Below, one piece after another: positions 8,884-36,668 of a stretch of DNA of 37,112 nt. Positions within the stretch are counted from its first letter, which is position 1. The number at the start of each line of letters is the position of its first letter. Below the pieces are notes generated by a model. That model was not told where the DNA came from and searched no databases. It was given only the letters and a program-made list of their open reading frames with translations. The position numbers were made by a program, and so were the translations under genes. The DNA is taken from IMG/VR virus record IMGVR_UViG_3300009502_000118, positions 1 through 37,112 of that record. The stretch is one strand, 5' to 3'. The stretch comes from a virus.

Positions 8884-10032
8884 TTATAAGGCTTTTATCA
8901 CTTTATTTATCGCATTAGAAAAATCATCTCCGTATTGCCAATTTTTCTTTACAAAGTCATAAGCATTTTCGCCAAGTTGTTTTCTTTTTTCTTCATGTAA
9001 GATTAAATCTTCAAGTGCATCAAACCATTCATTTTGTTTTACAAGTAATCCAGTCTTTTCGTGTTGAATAGTTTGTCTACCAAAACAATTAAAATAGTAT
9101 GGATAAACTTTTGATGCAATTACTGGAATTTTATACATTGAATATTCCATCCATTTAATATGAGATTTGCAACGAGTAAAAGCACAGTCAGTTAATGGAG
9201 CTATCCCAATATCCCATTTAAGTGAAGCAAGATATTTAGGATATTCTTTAAAAGTCCAAGTTGAAGGTAAAATATCACAACGTTTTTTAGCTTCATCACT
9301 GAATGGTGTAAATAATTTAATATTGCTTTTTCCTAAAGCTCCCAAACTTTCAAAATATACATTTTGGTATTTTTCCATTATCTTGGCTAGAGCAGGGAAC
9401 ATCATTTCTAAATCATCATCATGAGAATTTGAACCTGAATATCCTATTACTATTTTATCTTTGTGTTTTGGAGCTGGCTTAAATTTCCAAATATTGGCAT
9501 CATTCATGTTAGGAATTACAAAAATCTTTTTATCCATTTTATAAACTTTCTTTAAATGTTCGGCTACTTTTTGTTTAAGTGGTTCAGTTGATACTGTTAT
9601 AGCATCTGCAAAAGTTAAAATAGTAGACATAAAAGCTCTATCTTTTTTTGTTTCTTTAAATCTCTCATAAAGTTGATGGGTTGGTAGCACATCTAAATAG
9701 TTATCATCTAAATCAATTACTACTTTCTTTTTATATTTATCTCGGTGATAAAAAATAGCTGAAGCTAAATGTGGGTCAGTAAAATAACAAGTCCAAAAAA
9801 CATCATACTCTTTAAATATACGAGACCATCTCTGTTCTAGTGTTTCACCTTTCTTATCTAGTTTAACCCCTACTACTGAAACATCATGTCCTTTTAAATA
9901 TTTAGCAGGTTGCACTATGCGATAGTATCCTACTCCACCATAACCATCTTGTGATTGTCTGGCTACACTAGCACCAAAGTCATTACGAAAAAAAAGAACT
10001 TTCTTAACTTTGTTTTTTTTGTGGTCTTCCAT
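8884..10032 (-). CDS. Glycosyltransferase, GT-B fold (GT1/GT4-like)
   Basis: 382 residues from the ATG at 10030-10032. An upstream start to 10077 would lie deep inside the HNH gene. The N-terminal Rossmann half has 'KKVLFFRNDFGAS' and a 'YGGVGYYRIVQPAKYL' loop. The C-terminal half has 'IVIGYSGSNSHDDDLEMM' and the donor-binding block 'WDIGIAPLTDCAFTRCKSH', with 'KWMEYSMYKIPVIAS', the usual GT4 pattern of Lys/Glu residues followed by 'P(V/I)IAS'. It would transfer a sugar from a nucleotide donor, but the acceptor is unknown. The 5' end overlaps the HNH gene by 29 bp, so the endonuclease appears inserted right at its start. The last gene of the sugar cassette before the tail block. Confidence 0.8.
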   Translation of the reverse strand: MEDHKKNKVKKVLFFRNDFGASVARQSQDGYGGVGYYRIVQPAKYLKGHDVSVVGVKLDKKGETLEQRWSRIFKEYDVFWTCYFTDPHLASAIFYHRDKYKKKVVIDLDDNYLDVLPTHQLYERFKETKKDRAFMSTILTFADAITVSTEPLKQKVAEHLKKVYKMDKKIFVIPNMNDANIWKFKPAPKHKDKIVIGYSGSNSHDDDLEMMFPALAKIMEKYQNVYFESLGALGKSNIKLFTPFSDEAKKRCDILPSTWTFKEYPKYLASLKWDIGIAPLTDCAFTRCKSHIKWMEYSMYKIPVIASKVYPYYFNCFGRQTIQHEKTGLLVKQNEWFDALEDLILHEEKRKQLGENAYDFVKKNWQYGDDFSNAINKVIKAL

Positions 10033-10543
10033 AAGTATGAGTTTTATAATGACAAGATTTACATAATGTTCGACCATTATTTATATTCCAAAGTTCATCA
10101 CAATTTATTGCTTTTTCTACACAATCAATTTTACACTCTTGGACAATTAAAGCTAATGGTTTTATATGGTCAGCTTCAATATAGCCTCCTCTCATAAAAC
10201 AATGCTGACAAGTATAATTATCTCTTTTATAAATATCTGAACGCCATAGACGATAATTAAAAGTATTTCTTATTTGCTGATGCAAAGAACTTAATCCACC
10301 TTTCCAATTATTATTTAATATACCAATTCTTTTTCTCATTGCTATTGCTGTTTGTGGTTTTGGTTTCCCTTTATGTGCTAAACTTATTTTCTTTTTAACT
10401 TCTTCAGAAACTTTATAACCTAATTTAGCTTTTCGCATATTATCTCTCCATTCTTTTGAAAATGGTGGTCTAGGTCTTCCTTTATTTATATATGGTTTAC
10501 TTTTTTTTCTTATTTTTTTATTTTTCATTTCTTTTTGGGTCAT
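10004..10543 (-). CDS. NUMOD3/HNH homing-type endonuclease 1
   Basis: About 179 residues. The start is uncertain: ATG at 10543 or 10528, neither with a good ribosome site. The N-terminal half has DNA-binding NUMOD3-like repeats: 'RPRPPFSKEWRDNMRKAKLG' then 'VSEEVKKKISLAHKGKPKP'. The C-terminal half is an HNH nuclease: 'WRSDIYKRDNYTCQHC', 'EADHIKPL', then 'LWNINNGRTLCKSCH', giving zinc Cys pairs and a His-containing active site. It is clearly paralogous to the gene at 11165-11785. It overlaps the end of the DUF616 gene and the start of the glycosyltransferase gene. Homing endonucleases of this family spread by cutting alleles that lack them, so this is a mobile gene inside the sugar cassette. 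Confidence 0.85.
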   Translation of the reverse strand: MTQKEMKNKKIRKKSKPYINKGRPRPPFSKEWRDNMRKAKLGYKVSEEVKKKISLAHKGKPKPQTAIAMRKRIGILNNNWKGGLSSLHQQIRNTFNYRLWRSDIYKRDNYTCQHCFMRGGYIEADHIKPLALIVQECKIDCVEKAINCDELWNINNGRTLCKSCHYKTHTYGRPQKKQS

Positions 10544-11168
10544 TAAAATTACCTGATAAGTTCTTATGCCAATGCATCTCAGCAATATCAGCTAATATTG
10601 CTTTACCATCTTTTTCTTCCCAGTTTAAATCTATTGCATTTACAACGACACCTGATTCGTCTATCGCAGGCATAATACTTAATTGGTCTCGTCTTGAATA
10701 TCTACAATAATCAGCCCACCAAGCCTCGTTAAAGCGTCTGGTTCGTTCATTGTTGCGTCTAATAATAAATCCACCTTGTAAGAAACCTATGTCCTTTGGA
10801 AAGCCCATATCTTCATAGTGTTTGGCTTGTTCTATGATGGTTTCAACGTCATCCATCTGTAATTTAGCTACAACCATAGCTTCTTTATATAAACAACCTC
10901 TTGAATGTTTAAGCATAGCCATATCGTAGCCATCCATATAACGCTTAATAAGTTCTTCAGGTGGAATTAAGAGTTTCATATTACCATCATGGTAAATAGA
11001 AAATGTTTCGTTAAAATATTTATGTGATAGTATTTTCTGTATTCTTGAGTTTCTTCGAGGGTCTCTAAACCTATCATAAGCATCATTGAAAATAGTTATC
11101 GGATAATCTCTTTTAATAGGAGCATCCTTATTCCCCGTAATACAGGTATAAACGACTATATCTTTCAT
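10518..11168 (-). CDS. DUF616-type glycosyltransferase
   Basis: 216 residues. It starts 'MKDIVVYTCITGNKD', followed by 'RFRDPRRNSRIQKILSHKYF' and 'SIYHDGNMKLLIPPEEL', the signature of the DUF616 (TOD1/MUCI70-like) glycosyltransferase group. The Asp in 'YHDGN' stands where a GT-A enzyme places its metal-binding Asp. A later block has 'MDGYDMAMLKHSRGCLYKEA' and 'GGFIIRRNN', then an acidic segment. The ATG overlaps the stop of HNH 2 by 4 bp and the 3' end overlaps HNH 1, so this gene is flanked on both sides by related endonucleases. Substrate unknown. Confidence 0.7.
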   Translation of the reverse strand: MKDIVVYTCITGNKDAPIKRDYPITIFNDAYDRFRDPRRNSRIQKILSHKYFNETFSIYHDGNMKLLIPPEELIKRYMDGYDMAMLKHSRGCLYKEAMVVAKLQMDDVETIIEQAKHYEDMGFPKDIGFLQGGFIIRRNNERTRRFNEAWWADYCRYSRRDQLSIMPAIDESGVVVNAIDLNWEEKDGKAILADIAEMHWHKNLSGNFNDPKRNEK

Positions 11169-11785
11169 AAAAAGTTTTTATATTTCCAACCATAAGTATC
11201 TGTATTTTTATGACATTCAATACAGAGTGTTCGACCATTATTTAGGTTCCATAATTCTTCACATTCAAATCCTTTCTCTGTTGAATCAATTTTATTTTCT
11301 CTGATTATTAAAAAGAAAGGTTTGATGTGGTCTGCATGTAATTTATTGCCATGTTCTTTTCCGCCAATAACACATTGAAAATTATCTCTAGTAAATATAT
11401 CACTTCGCCACTGTCTATATTTTAGTGATTCCCTTAACAGATGTATAACAGAAGATAATCCTCCTTGCCAGTTTGGATTAAGTTCTTTTCTTCTTTTCAG
11501 ACTCATTTTAAGTCTAGCTTCTGGGGAAATAATATTTACTAAACCTTTTTTCCATGATGTTTTACCCTTACGGGATAGACTCATATTGCGTTTAATTTCT
11601 TCTGATAGTTTGGAACCTCGCATTTTTACATAATGAGGAGCCATTGCAAGTTTTATTTTTCTTTTTGTTTCTTCAGACACAATTCTTCCTTTCTGAAAAC
11701 CGAGCATTCCTTTATTCCAAGGAATATGTCCTTTAAGTTTTTCGCTAAGTTTATTTTTTGTTTCTTGTGTTTGTTTGCGTCCCAT
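11165..11785 (-). CDS. NUMOD3/HNH homing-type endonuclease 2
   Basis: 206 residues. The N-terminal part carries NUMOD3-like basic repeats: 'ETKNKLSEKLKGHIPWNKGM', 'VSEETKRKIKLAM', 'LSEEIKRNMSLSRKGK'. The HNH part has 'WRSDIFTRDNFQCVIGG', 'LHADHIKPFFLI' and 'LWNLNNGRTLCIECH'. The first zinc pair is altered: where paralogue 1 has CQHC this copy has CVIGG, so only one Cys remains there. The catalytic His and the Asn/His of the second half are present. It separates the DegT aminotransferase from the DUF616 gene. Probably a selfish element; the altered zinc pair may mean reduced activity. Confidence 0.83.
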   Translation of the reverse strand: MGRKQTQETKNKLSEKLKGHIPWNKGMLGFQKGRIVSEETKRKIKLAMAPHYVKMRGSKLSEEIKRNMSLSRKGKTSWKKGLVNIISPEARLKMSLKRRKELNPNWQGGLSSVIHLLRESLKYRQWRSDIFTRDNFQCVIGGKEHGNKLHADHIKPFFLIIRENKIDSTEKGFECEELWNLNNGRTLCIECHKNTDTYGWKYKNFL

Positions 11786-24070: not shown

Positions 24071-24583
24071 TTAAAATGTTTTTCTTAATAATTTCAACCA
24101 GTAATCACGATTGTAATTTGTTTTTACGTGACATCTTATACAAACACTTATCAGATTATTTGGGTTGCAGTTTTCTTTGTTGTAGTCTATGTGATGAACA
24201 GACAAAGCTCTATCCCCTTGTTTTTCACCACAAATTTGACAAGTATATTTATCTCTCTCCCGAATACTCTGTCTTAAGGTTCTAGTCCAATCAAGAGAAT
24301 AAGGTTCAAAAGATTTTCCTCCTCTCCAGTTTGGTGATAGTGCCCCTGTTTTTCCAAACATATAAGAGAGTTTTCCTTTATGTGCTTTACTCATCTTTTC
24401 TATGGTTTCTGTGTTGTGTTTCTTACCACGCATTCCACAAGAAGAAGTATGTCTACTACTTTCCTTCATTCTTTTTCTCGTGATTTCAGAAAGTTTCCAC
24501 CCTCCTCTTTTCTTTGTTCTCTCGTAAATTCCAACTTTTCCTTTTAAGGCACCTATTTTTCTTTTATATACTCCCTTTGGCAT
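24071..24583 (-). CDS. NUMOD3/HNH homing-type endonuclease 3
   Basis: 170 residues. The N-terminal half has basic repeats 'KLSEITRKRMKESSRHTSSC' and 'NTETIEKMSKAHKGKLSYMF', NUMOD3-like. The HNH half has 'LRQSIRERDKYTCQICGEKQ', 'LSVHHIDYNKENCNPNNLIS' and 'CIRCHVKT', giving the CxxC...HH...N...CxxCH layout of an active enzyme. It is only distantly related to the two copies in the sugar cassette, so it looks like an independent arrival. It lies in the accessory region between two unknown genes. Confidence 0.87.
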   Translation of the reverse strand: MPKGVYKRKIGALKGKVGIYERTKKRGGWKLSEITRKRMKESSRHTSSCGMRGKKHNTETIEKMSKAHKGKLSYMFGKTGALSPNWRGGKSFEPYSLDWTRTLRQSIRERDKYTCQICGEKQGDRALSVHHIDYNKENCNPNNLISVCIRCHVKTNYNRDYWLKLLRKTF

Positions 24584-25699: not shown

Positions 25700-26392
25700 T
25701 TATAATGCTTTTACATTTTTAAGAGCTTGTTCTACTTCTTGTTTGTCAAAGGTTTTGTCGCCAATTTTAATGGTTTCTTTTTCACCAATTCGGATACCTG
25801 TGATTTCTTCAAAGATTTGACTATTGAAGCAAGGAAGATTCTTAAACCATTCTTTATCACTTTGACTTGCTCTATTCCAATATTCTTTCCACGCTTCTTT
25901 GTAGGTAAGAGTTTTAAGTAGTCCTCCCATTTGTTTGGCACTTTCTGATTGCTCATCTTTAGGTAAGTCGTTTAATTCTACCCAAGCACAGATTTTTAAA
26001 TCAGGATATATCCAAGATTTTTTACTAAATTCTGAATAGGTAATATCACTATCTTGATTAAAGAAACGCATTTTAGGTTCGTTGGTGTTGAACCATCCGC
26101 TGTTGCGGTTTCCGCTGTTGAAGTTTCCGCTGTTGCGGTTTCCGCTGTTGTAGTCTCCGCTGTTGACGTATCCGCTGTTGCGGTTTCCGCTGTTGAAGTT
26201 TCCGCTGTTGAAGTCTCCGCTGTTGAAGTCTCCGCTGTTGACGTATCCGCTGTTGAAGTCTCCGCTGTTGAAGTATCCGCTGTTGACGTCTCCGCTGTTG
26301 AAGTTGCCAGAGTTGCGGTTGCCAGAGTTGTTACACCCTGTATTATTTTTTAAATGCTCTTCTTTACAATACTCACATATTTTTTTACACAT
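25700..26392 (-). CDS. Asn-Ser-Gly pentapeptide-repeat protein
   Basis: 230 residues. The N-terminus has CxxC-type cysteines ('MCKKICEYCKEEH'). Residues 22-101 hold 16 units of NSGxx, with xx drawn from NR, NF, DV, YF, DF, YV, DY and WF. This is the NxGxxNxG class of pentapeptide repeats (Pfam Pentapeptide_2-like), expected to form a right-handed beta-helix. Residues 110-230 form a separate domain with 'WIYPDLKICAWVELNDLPKD', 'GGLLKTLTYKEAWKEYWNR' and 'GIRIGEKETIKIGDKTF'. Similar proteins occur in phages with unknown role. The repeat DNA has a 15-bp period and can gain or lose units. Target unknown; DNA-mimicry of the Qnr type is not supported, as those use A(D/N)LxX. Confidence 0.75.
   Translation of the reverse strand: MCKKICEYCKEEHLKNNTGCNNSGNRNSGNFNSGDVNSGYFNSGDFNSGYVNSGDFNSGDFNSGNFNSGNRNSGYVNSGDYNSGNRNSGNFNSGNRNSGWFNTNEPKMRFFNQDSDITYSEFSKKSWIYPDLKICAWVELNDLPKDEQSESAKQMGGLLKTLTYKEAWKEYWNRASQSDKEWFKNLPCFNSQIFEEITGIRIGEKETIKIGDKTFDKQEVEQALKNVKAL
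26090..26329. repeat. 15-bp coding tandem repeat, 16 units
   Basis: Sixteen units of 15 bases with plus-strand core CCGCTGTTG followed by 6 variable bases. The unit encodes NSGxx on the minus strand. The last two units towards the gene start use diverged Gly/Asn codons (ccagagttg), so the array has aged at one end and been homogenised at the other. Confidence 0.9.
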
Positions 26393-26539: not shown

Positions 26540-26755
26540 CTACTTATTAAACACACATTTATTGATAAAGAAATACCTTTTAATCGTTGAACGAATTTTA
26601 TAACACCCAAAGCAAACTTGTGTAAGAGCATCGTGAAAAGTGGAATAAATCGCTTGTTGAGTATGTTTTCCTTCACAATTCTTAATATGCTCTCTAACTT
26701 CTTCTTGTTTCTCTATGTATTCATAGTCAAATTTTTTATCCATAAAATTATTCAT
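26540..26755 (-). CDS. Small putative zinc-binding protein, 71 aa
   Basis: 71 residues. 'VREHIKNCEGKHTQQAIYST' followed by 'FHDALTQVCFGCYKIRSTIK' holds Cys, His, and a CxxC pair, a possible zinc knuckle. The start overlaps the end of the repeat protein gene by 8 bp; an alternative ATG lies at 26743. No ribosome site is seen at either. Function unknown. Confidence 0.5.
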   Translation of the reverse strand: MNNFMDKKFDYEYIEKQEEVREHIKNCEGKHTQQAIYSTFHDALTQVCFGCYKIRSTIKRYFFINKCVFNK

Positions 26756-27776
26756 TACTATCGTCTGTTTCTATAAACTTACCACTGACCAATTTATACC
26801 AAGTATCAGATTTAATTTTCTTTCCGTCTACTTTAGCAGATTTTACTGCTATAGGGTGAACTTTGGTTAAATCATTATCTTCGTTCCATTCAGCTAATAC
26901 AATAAATGAACCAAGTGATGCTTTAGCTTTTGATTTTCTTCCGATAGCACACGCAATAGCATCGGATGTTTTAGTTGCGGAGTGAGCACCATAACCAGAG
27001 GTTGCGGAGTTAGCACGATTACCAGAGGTTGCGGAGTGAGCATATTCACCAGAGGTTGCGGAGTGAGCATCATTACCAGAGGTTGCGGAGTGAGCATATT
27101 CACCAGAGGTTGCGGAGTGAGCACGATTACCAGAGGTTGCGGAGTGAGCATATTCACCAGAGGTTGCGGAGTGAGCATCATAACCAGAGGTTGCGGAGTG
27201 AGCATATTCACCAGAGGTTGCGGAGTGAGCATATTCACCAGAGGTTGCGGAGTTAGCACGATTACCAGAGGTTGCGGAGTGAGCATATTCACCAGAGGTT
27301 GCGGAGTGAGCACCATAACCAGAGGTTGCGGAGTGAGCATATTCACCAGAGGTTGCGGAGTGAGCATCATTACCAGAGGTTGCGGAGTGAGCACGATTAC
27401 CAGAGGTTGCGGAAGTTTTTTTAAAAATTTTCTTTTCAGATGCTTTACTCCAAATAAAATCAACAGATGCCTTAACCATAGTTTCTATTGAAAGACGAGC
27501 ACCAATCTTAATATTGGAGCAAGATATTTTAGTATCACTATTTTTTTCTTTATCTATTTTCCCACTTCCTTCTACTTCGTGAAAAATACTATCGTTCAAT
27601 CTATAATAATATAGACAATCTAAAGGATTTTCACAAAAATGGAAGCCTGAATTACATATTTTTACTTCTCCATTATGGATATATTCTTTACCTTCTTCAT
27701 ATTTGAAACCATTACAAGTTAAATCTTTATTAAATCCTTTGAAACCTTTTATTATTTTTTTGTCTTTTTTCTCCAT
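26748..27776 (-). CDS. Repeat protein with DUF7666-like ends and 16 nine-residue units
   Basis: 342 residues. The N-terminus reads 'GFKGFNKDLTCNGFKYEEGK' then 'CNSGFHFCENPLDCLYYY', and the C-terminus has 'GSFIVLAEWNEDNDLTKVHP', 'AVKSAKVDGKKIKSDTWYKL'. Both match a prophage protein type (DUF7666-like, from memory) whose centre carries tandem Ala/Ser/Thr/Gly repeats. Here residues 122-265 are 16 units of SATSGxxA(H/N), with xx only NR, ND, EY, YG or YD. The repeats probably form a beta-solenoid. Known homologues have no assigned role. It is the largest gene of the accessory region. Confidence 0.75.
   Translation of the reverse strand: MEKKDKKIIKGFKGFNKDLTCNGFKYEEGKEYIHNGEVKICNSGFHFCENPLDCLYYYRLNDSIFHEVEGSGKIDKEKNSDTKISCSNIKIGARLSIETMVKASVDFIWSKASEKKIFKKTSATSGNRAHSATSGNDAHSATSGEYAHSATSGYGAHSATSGEYAHSATSGNRANSATSGEYAHSATSGEYAHSATSGYDAHSATSGEYAHSATSGNRAHSATSGEYAHSATSGNDAHSATSGEYAHSATSGNRANSATSGYGAHSATKTSDAIACAIGRKSKAKASLGSFIVLAEWNEDNDLTKVHPIAVKSAKVDGKKIKSDTWYKLVSGKFIETDDSNE
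26982..27413. repeat. 27-bp coding tandem repeat, 16 units
   Basis: Sixteen 27-base units with plus-strand core CCAGAGGTTGCGGAGT and a 6-base variable part. Bases outside the variable part are nearly identical in all units, which implies recent amplification or gene conversion. The variable dipeptide order is NR, ND, EY, YG, EY, NR, EY, EY, YD, EY, NR, EY, ND, EY, NR, YG. Confidence 0.92.
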
Positions 27777-34054: not shown

Positions 34055-34173
34055 AATTTACTACGCAAAAAGGTATTCCCACTGGGCAAGTTAGTGAAAA
34101 CTTGGTGTCCGAAGACACAATGAGAATACCTTTTTGTGTAATAATTATTAAAATGTTTTTCACTATTTCCCAT
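34036..34173 (-). CDS. Possible leaderless 45-aa peptide overlapping the replication gene
   Basis: An open frame starts at the ATG 34171-34173, only 8 bases after the TATAAT box at 34182-34187, so its transcript would start at or near the ATG. It reads 'MGNSEKHFNNYYTKRYSHCV' and ends 'GNTFLRSKLWNKVG', overlapping the replication gene start by 19 bp. The same DNA folds into the structured leader at 34062-34140, so the frame could be accidental. If used, translation would remodel the structure, as in attenuation. Confidence 0.3.
   Translation of the reverse strand: MGNSEKHFNNYYTKRYSHCVFGHQVFTNLPSGNTFLRSKLWNKVG
34062..34140 (-). ncRNA. Three-helix structured leader of the replication gene
   Basis: A 17-bp outer helix pairs 34062-34078 with 34124-34140 (core CAAAAAGGTATTC with GAATACCTTTTTG). 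Two inner hairpins are CAAGTT-6-AACTTG (34087-34104) and GTGTC-4-GACAC (34105-34118). On the minus strand the second is closed by C(UUCG)G, a very stable tetraloop. The outer 3' strand ends ACCTTTTT, like a terminator. It lies between the promoter and the replication gene start, 7 bases away. I infer a leader that tunes expression. A simple terminator is the alternative. Confidence 0.55.
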
Positions 34174-34840: not shown

Positions 34841-35074
34841 TCAAGATTTACAGGGTTCATCTTCAACTGGTGTCCATCTATTCCACTCTTTTACAGAGCA
34901 ACTAAAAACTGTTCCTATCGCACATTCACCTTCTTCTTCTATACACTGATTGCAACAGAAGAAGTAATTTATTTGATGAGTGCAAGGATTGTAGTTTAGG
35001 AAAGTGATTTCAAAATCAGCTTCCCCATGAAATTCGCAATTTGATTTTGCATAAAACGATTTAACTGGAAACAT
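34841..35074 (-). CDS. Cysteine-rich small protein, 77 aa
   Basis: 77 residues with about 8 Cys, including 'FFCCNQCIEEEGECAIG' and 'NCEFHGEADFEITFLNYNPC'. It may bind zinc in two knuckles. The start has a near-perfect ribosome site, AAAGGAGG, 7 bases upstream, and this site follows directly after the structured element at 35094-35347. If that RNA is a leader, this gene is its target. No family recognised. Confidence 0.6.
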   Translation of the reverse strand: MFPVKSFYAKSNCEFHGEADFEITFLNYNPCTHQINYFFCCNQCIEEEGECAIGTVFSCSVKEWNRWTPVEDEPCKS

Positions 35075-35093
35075 TTTGTCCTCCTTTCTTTTT

Positions 35094-35347
35094 TAGATGT
35101 GTGTAAGGTGGAGGAAGCAAGGATTTGATAGGATTACGGGAACTTCCCACTAGTGGGCATCCACAGGAGAGCCGAAGCCCTCTACCTTTAGTCACCTTAC
35201 ACGATTTTCAATATTGTTTAATAGATCTCGGCACTCCCAATATTAAGGGCTATTAACCTTTGTTTTACTTCATCTATGCCCGAGAATTATTCGCATAGAT
35301 ATAGCCCGTCACTTTTTAGGCGTATTCCTCCACTTTACACACATCTA
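35094..35347 (-). ncRNA. Multi-helix structured RNA candidate with kissing loop
   Basis: The ends 35094-35116 and 35325-35347 are complementary over 23 positions (one G-U on plus, one A-C on minus). Inside are GGGCTAT/ATAGCCC (35247-35253 with 35301-35307), ATCTATGC/GCATAGAT (35272-35279 with 35293-35300), AATATTG/CAATATT (35210-35216 with 35238-35244), and a minus-strand GAGGGC-UUCG-GCTCTC hairpin (35167-35182). TCTCGG (35226-35231), in the loop of one hairpin, pairs with CCGAGA (35280-35285), in the loop of another. CACCTTACAC (35193-35202) can also pair with 35101-35110, competing with the outer helix. No known RNA class matches from memory. It precedes the ribosome site of the Cys-rich gene by a few bases. 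Confidence 0.6.
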
Positions 35348-35376
35348 TATTCTTTTTTCAATATACTATTCTCTAT

Positions 35377-35398
35377 AAGCGAGCCATAAAGCTCGCCT
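35377..35398 (-). other. Hairpin after the holin gene
   Basis: Minus strand AGGCGAGC-TTTATG-GCTCGCTT is an 8-bp stem (one G-U), 9 bases after the holin stop. There is no T run after it, so if it terminates transcription it is weak; it could also protect the 3' end of the lysis mRNA or mark a processing site before the structured element. Confidence 0.5.
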
Positions 35399-35407
35399 AA
35401 GAAAATA

Positions 35408-35653
35408 CTATTTCTGTAATAAGTTTCCTGTCGTTCCACTTAAAAATCTTTTTGAGAGATATGTAAGTCCTGAAAAAACTGCTACTACAATTATTGCTTG
35501 GATATTGATATGAATTTGAAATGGCTTACCATCTAAAACTAATTCATAAAGTCCACCAAAAATTGCAAGTAAATACATCACTACATCTCCTAAAACTGCG
35601 AATAAAAAACCATTTAAAATATCTTTCCAATTGATACTAAATAAATCTGACAT
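35408..35653 (-). CDS. Holin-like membrane protein
   Basis: 81 residues from the ATG at 35651-35653, after the purine-rich AGAAGAAA; starts at 35701 and 35713 (GTG) are possible but would overlap the endolysin gene. 'MSDLFSINWKDILNGFLFAV' leads into span 1 ('LNGFLFAVLGDVVMYLLAIF'), an extramembrane loop, and span 2 ('IQAIIVVAVFSGLTYLSKRF'), then a short 'TTGNLLQK' tail. The 'INWKD.LNG' start, two spans and NLL tail are seen in phage holins. It lies right after the endolysin gene, so the pair would form the lysis cassette. Confidence 0.65.
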   Translation of the reverse strand: MSDLFSINWKDILNGFLFAVLGDVVMYLLAIFGGLYELVLDGKPFQIHINIQAIIVVAVFSGLTYLSKRFLSGTTGNLLQK

Positions 35654-35693
35654 AACTTTTTTTTCTTCTAATAAAAAGTCCTCTATCTCGTAG

Positions 35694-36668
35694 CTAGGCA
35701 TTAAGAGAAGCACGAGTTAAAGCACCTACTATCCCATCATTGACTAAATTATGAGATAACTGATAATTCTTTACCGCTTTTAATGTTAGCGAACCAAAAA
35801 AGCCTGTTTGTATTACTCCAAGTCTTTTTTGTAATTCTTTAACATCACTACTAATCATACCAAATATTAGAGTTTTGGTAAATTTAAAAAGTGGAAAATT
35901 ATATACCATAGTCCAACAAGACCAAACACCTCCTTTAAAGTAATCCTCTGAAATATATTGCCAACCATATTCACCTACAGAGTTTCCCCATGAGTTAGCA
36001 AAACCAATATATTTTTTTCCATTTATCATTAATGCTTTTCCACAATACAACCAATGAGCCCAGCAATCTGAGTTTATTTTAACTGGTGGAAGTGGAAATT
36101 TAGTTCTCCAAGTTCCGTTGTTCGTTCCATAAATTCCTATTACACAACCTTTATTATTTGATATAGCTTGAGCTACCTCGTCTATGTTTAGATTAACCAT
36201 AGCGTAGGATAGTCCTTTATCATTTAAAGCGTGTGCAAATGCTTCTAAGGTGATATCTTGTGGTCTTTCATAAAAGTCTTCACCTTGGGGCATTCCATTG
36301 ATATAGGAAGGGGTTAAATTCTCATCTCCCCATCCTTTTTTAATAACTAAATCACAATTAGTTCTACCTGCCGAACCACCTTTACCTACGAAAGTTTGAG
36401 AATAAATAAATTTTGCAGATTTTTCTTCGTTATCTATATCAAGTGCTTGCCCGTAATATGACCACGCTTGACCTCCACAACTTGAACTACCATTTTGGTC
36501 TTTGATAGTTAATTTTTTGCCTATTACTTGTTCTATGTCATAACCCATACTCCAATCAAATGGTGGAAATGCCATAGCTACATTAGCATATTGATAATCT
36601 CTATTGTCTGGTGCGTCTGGGATAGCTCCTGTGCCAAATACTTGTTCTCCTACTTGTGCATTATTCAT
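35694..36668 (-). CDS. Papain-like cysteine protease with peptidoglycan-binding domain (endolysin candidate)
   Basis: 324 residues. 'IKDQNGSSSCGGQAWSYYGQ' holds the oxyanion Gln58 and nucleophile Cys64 of C1-type peptidases; His205 in 'CWAHWLYCG' and Asn225 in 'FANSWGNSVGEYGW' complete the triad. Residues 272-322 match a PG_binding_1 domain: 'SSDVKELQKRLGVIQTGFFG', 'LTLKAVKNYQLSHNLVNDGI', 'VGALTRASL'. No signal peptide is seen. A C1 protease fused to a wall-binding domain beside a holin-like gene is an unusual endolysin; it would cut peptide stems or a surface protein. It could instead be a virion-linked protease. Confidence 0.8.
   Translation of the reverse strand: MNNAQVGEQVFGTGAIPDAPDNRDYQYANVAMAFPPFDWSMGYDIEQVIGKKLTIKDQNGSSSCGGQAWSYYGQALDIDNEEKSAKFIYSQTFVGKGGSAGRTNCDLVIKKGWGDENLTPSYINGMPQGEDFYERPQDITLEAFAHALNDKGLSYAMVNLNIDEVAQAISNNKGCVIGIYGTNNGTWRTKFPLPPVKINSDCWAHWLYCGKALMINGKKYIGFANSWGNSVGEYGWQYISEDYFKGGVWSCWTMVYNFPLFKFTKTLIFGMISSDVKELQKRLGVIQTGFFGSLTLKAVKNYQLSHNLVNDGIVGALTRASLNA

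Follow-up and report, generated by a model that had tools for sequence, protein, structure and literature searches.

Lysis-side element and its terminal helix

A 254-nt intergenic element (35094-35347) in IMG/VR record IMGVR_UViG_3300009502_000118, an uncultured phage, is closed by a 23-position terminal helix that is genuine and greatly exceeds chance expectation. The record was analyzed at its full length of 37,112 bases and is referred to here as the window. We tentatively favor the reading, at a strength somewhat short of probable, that the element is a structured RNA from an intergenic gap, with a dsRNA-like stem that would serve to separate the lysis and early transcripts as an RNase III-type processing or insulating element.

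All plausible genes of the window lie on the minus strand, and this orientation favors the minus strand for the element RNA. The element occupies a gap (35075-35407) between the lysis genes, an endolysin with a peptidoglycan-binding domain (35694-36668) and a holin-like gene (35408-35713) identified solely from its position and size, and a gene for a Cys/His-rich protein of 77 aa (34841-35074, minus strand) that opens the following gene run. A search for a family match to the 77-aa protein returned none. The ribosome site of this minus-strand gene (CCTCCTTT on the plus strand, AAAGGAGG on the minus strand) was located at 35080-35087, just outside the helix, where the first-pass annotation had placed it. 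The element has a GC content of 42% against 33% for the genome, and a promoter scan yielded sites in a number not above chance. Elsewhere in the window we observed three similar HNH-endonuclease-like genes (10004-10585, 11165-11785 and 24071-24583), the first two of them 70% alike over 161 nt, which are probably homing endonucleases, and genes bearing in-frame 27-nt and 15-nt repeat arrays with SATSGxxAH and NSGxx motifs (26748-27776 and 25700-26392).

The two arms of the inverted repeat, 35094-35116 and 35325-35347, would form the 3' and 5' arms, respectively, of the minus-strand RNA. Over their 23 nt they form 22 Watson-Crick pairs and one mismatch (96% complementary); the mismatch reads G-U on the plus strand and A-C on the minus strand. 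In three Markov simulations of 908 kb, the combined length of the window and the terminase-related loci, no inverted repeat reached the score of the terminal helix (at least 21), confirming the helix that had been claimed from the letters. The whole 254 nt folded with z-scores of -6.1 (plus strand) and -5.9 (minus strand), and none of 200 shuffles folded as well.

We searched for relatives of the element by several routes. BLAST against phages gave only 20-40-base pieces at E 0.3 or worse and no homologue, and BLAST against plasmids gave no relative. Among 41 related virus records only 14-19-base matches were recovered and no DNA homologue, and DNA comparison with all the loci collected did not yield a homologue. 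The endolysin and the 77-aa protein retrieved no closer relatives when used as IMG/VR queries, the DnaD-like protein retrieved distant relatives only, and a host search by terminase alignment in genomes gave no match. No Rfam family matched the element, in agreement with the earlier statement that no known RNA class has such a layout. Membership in GOLLD or ROOL, large ornate phage-associated RNAs (PMC12286853), was rejected on the same ground, the Rfam models giving no match. The element is an orphan carrying a known type of stem, and its interior fold is putative.

Interior of the element

The 208-base interior (35117-35324, minus strand) is predicted to form hairpins that are not better than those of shuffled sequences. 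Folded without the arms, it gave z-scores of -1.4 (plus strand) and -0.8 (minus strand), and when the arms were kept and the interior was shuffled, 70 of 400 shuffles folded at least as well. The set of nested interior helices described in the first-pass annotation was not confirmed as non-random, its folding energy being within the shuffle range.

Two individual features of the interior were also evaluated. A possible 6-bp loop-loop contact would join TCTCGG (35226-35231) to CCGAGA (35280-35285). The two segments match at the positions given in the first-pass annotation; their placement in hairpin loops, the other half of that claim, was recovered only in the minimum-energy fold of the minus strand, and the kissing geometry is confined to that strand. 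The strand CACCTTACAC (35193-35202) perfectly complements 35101-35110 over 10 bp, as had been noted, and is able to compete for this part of the terminal helix. Each of the two features is individually unlikely by chance: any such 6-bp loop-loop match occurred in 4 of 400 interior shuffles and a terminal-arm match of at least 10 bases in 22 of 5000, figures that are uncorrected for choice since both features were picked from many possible ones. An internal duplication of the 5' region was considered as the origin of the competing strand and rejected, the local alignment being equalled in 246 of 3000 shuffles.

Long-stem units in the window and in related phages

The window contains two other long stems. 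A long hairpin devoid of a T run (35364-35410, minus strand, z -6.7) lies between the end of the holin-like gene and the element, and a second long-stem unit of 87 nt with two inner hairpins (34058-34144) lies directly before the DnaD-like gene. The latter leans to the minus strand, with a z-score of -8.15 against -6.1 on the plus strand. It carries a C-UUCG-G loop on the minus strand and stops four bases short of the DnaD-like ATG; the intervening bases contain no obvious ribosome site. The likeness of this unit to the element was equalled in 240 of 1000 shuffles, and we therefore recognize none between the two.

A terminase search recovered 47 relatives with up to 86% identity, and an architecture scan of their non-coding gaps revealed elements of 70-370 bases closed by irregular helices of 13-27 bp, which in some relatives stand in tandem arrays of 3-7 units. 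G003 has one 143-nt unit, and G002 has four consecutive units of 91-344 nt (L076:11331-12131, minus strand), flanked by a C1-peptidase-like endolysin on one side and a lysozyme-like gene on the other. In G005 (L079:4614-5017, minus strand) we found three units of 129-154 nt, and in a non-coding gap of G007 (L081:8000-8780, minus strand) about seven consecutive units of ~60-130 nt, as judged from the predicted fold. The 1.46-kb gap behind the M23 endolysin of G010 (L083:17610-19068) holds at least three units, and further long-stem units are present in G011, G030 and G031. Units lie directly behind lysis genes in G000, G002, G003 and G010. No clear unit was recognized in G004, the closest whole relative: its lysis-side gap lacks a long terminal stem, and a closing helix of 14 bp appeared in just one of the folds.

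Other features of the relatives were also observed. The minus strand of the G010 gap includes a tRNA-like sequence (AAGGAGTTCGAGCCCTCCT T-arm and a 6-bp outer stem) that was not called by ARAGORN. In more distant relatives, elements closed by 25-27-nt inverted repeats (L055:8793-9011, 219 nt; L060:7128-7328, 201 nt) occupy gaps upstream of terminase genes, and in the distant terminase relative G040 a 41-nt inverted repeat closes a non-coding element of 222 nt (L196:12134-12355).

Long-stem units look enriched in the clade relative to other phages. Counting non-coding elements with a score of at least 16 and an arm GC of at least 0.3, we obtained 13 in 495 kb of the clade and 11 in ~1.9 Mb of controls (5 in 751 kb of distant terminase relatives, 6 in 547 kb of other phages and 0 in 591 kb of DnaD-like phage loci), a comparison that is indicative because overlapping loci are counted in the lengths, one element accounts for two of the control matches, and neither GC nor habitat was matched in the controls. 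Across the units whose gene strand was assigned, the mismatches totaled 26 G-U and 17 A-C, a weak trend toward G-U. The units have no common sequence that would show common descent.

A processing stem and the alternatives

The processing reading would work as follows. If the element is read with the phage genes from the minus strand, the ends of a transcript crossing the space that separates the lysis genes from the following operon would pair into a dsRNA-like stem of 22-23 positions. A host RNase III-type enzyme would cut or recognize this stem, and the cut would separate the lysis mRNA from the downstream mRNA and place the newly formed 5' end near the ribosome site of the downstream gene; it may also release an RNA of ~200 nt. 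We favor a processing or insulating stem because the stem is the sole established structure, is as long as RNase III substrates are, stands at the boundary between lysis genes and operon, and has a companion hairpin at 35364-35410. RNase III-type processing stems are uninterrupted, or nearly so, over ~20 bp or more, and the 23 positions with one mismatch found here fall within the range of known substrates. The terminal helix, its position, the two neighboring long stems and the recurrence and apparent enrichment of such stems in relatives all back this reading. Against it, the searches gave no homologue, the stem has an A-C mismatch on the minus strand and a G-U only on the plus strand, and some relatives have arrays reaching about seven units, more than a processing site would require. 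A simple hairpin would suffice for processing, so the 208-base insert is unexplained. A processed phage RNA, as had been proposed from the first reading of the sequence, is possible and is the reading we favor.

Another reading, which we regard as unlikely, is that the clade encodes a fast-evolving class of non-coding RNAs closed by long stems near the lysis cassette. Such RNAs would be single or in tandem arrays and would resemble one another in architecture while differing in sequence, with the probable Rsr-bound Y RNAs of G005 as one branch and the element as a single-copy member acting in trans.

The G005 array adjoins the gene for a protein of 500 aa that bears TROVE and Ro60 vWA domains (L079:2989-4491, minus strand), and one of its three units carries a permuted tRNA module made up of a T-arm, a closed 7-bp acceptor stem and a stretch resembling a D-arm, with sub-threshold matches to tmRNA halves and to YrlA. 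The first two units have GAGGTTGTAAYGTC in common at the top of the stem. Bacterial YrlA RNAs are reported to combine a tRNA-like domain with an Rsr partner (PMC7790460, PMC4726728), and a Listeria phage that makes abundant RNAs near an Rsr-like gene offers a precedent (PMC12282133); the G005 array probably consists of phage Y RNAs. That the window element is itself a stable trans-acting RNA forming a ribonucleoprotein, such as a Y RNA held through its terminal stem by a host Ro60/Rsr protein, is doubtful. Its paired 5' and 3' ends do close an inner module as in a Y RNA, and the G005 array and the Listeria phage lend the idea some support. However, a search with the pattern of the tRNA-like module that marks the YrlA type (T-arm, closed acceptor, D-arm) found one full case in G005 and none in the window, so that we do not class the element, which has no T-arm/acceptor module, among the Y RNAs; a relaxed pattern was not significant overall, one Markov set alone giving 30 matches. 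The element had no Rfam YrlA match at the curated cut-off and, at 254 nt, is longer than the G005 units. The window record, like 22 other relatives, has no TROVE gene, although the host could supply Ro60/Rsr.

A cis-acting leader switch deserves about the same low weight as a Y RNA. Here 35193-35202 and the 5' arm would compete for the 3' arm and thereby control the next gene, an arrangement suggested by the perfect 10-bp competing helix with its low frequency in shuffles and by the gene start directly downstream of the element. In a model of the 318-nt leader, the internal strand paired with the 3' arm once the 5' arm was blocked. The competing fold was ~22 kcal/mol less stable under these conditions, and the predicted exposure of the Shine-Dalgarno sequence did not differ between the terminal-helix fold and the competing one. 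The leader model thus leaves a ribosome-site switch, one form of the cis switch suggested in the first-pass annotation, unsupported; nor did the searches provide a homologue or the element a ligand-binding core.

It is improbable that the element functions as a DNA-level site, that is, a replication origin or a packaging or protein-binding site using the inverted repeat. The inverted repeat is significant, the mismatch pattern over all units is not clearly in favor of RNA, and a DnaD-like helicase-loader gene lies near the element. Against these points, the arms are 208 bases apart, the element is GC-richer than the genome, and no iterons were found in the gap (35075-35407). Nothing specific favored the suggestion of an origin, and the detrended GC skew had no turning point at the element, which is weak evidence. 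A MITE-like insertion, as the well-defined 23-bp terminal inverted repeats, each bordered by TA on its outer side, might suggest, is very improbable and was rejected: the element is single-copy in the record with no plasmid relative by BLAST, and the terminal-repeat patterns, which occurred at only 2 sites in the genome collection and at 10 in IMG/VR, never had a partner arm within 600 bases.

Significance and comparison with known systems

If the processing stem we favor is indeed cut, it would show how the phage separates its lysis transcripts from those downstream and would point to an unannotated RNA output. The clade pattern is more interesting than the single element, with its tandem arrays and, in one member, a probable Rsr/Y RNA pair making a testable case for the idea that small phages may set aside long non-coding regions for structured RNAs evolving too fast for sequence search.

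The element resembles GOLLD and ROOL in being phage-associated, in its many predicted helices and in its possible loop-loop contact, but it is much smaller, matches no Rfam model and has an interior fold that is only predicted. Its likeness to YrlA (RF02553) and Ro60/Rsr systems lies in ends that pair into a long stem closing an inner module, with a probable case in G005; it differs in that the window has no tRNA-like module, Rfam match or Rsr gene. RNase III processing stems are known from the early mRNA sites of phage T7 and from rRNA precursors. The T7 sites are simple hairpins, whereas the stem described here closes 208 bases and its cleavage is putative. Like both the T7 early mRNA sites and the rRNA precursor stems, the element would place a long stretch of dsRNA within an intergenic transcript, immediately ahead of the gene that follows.
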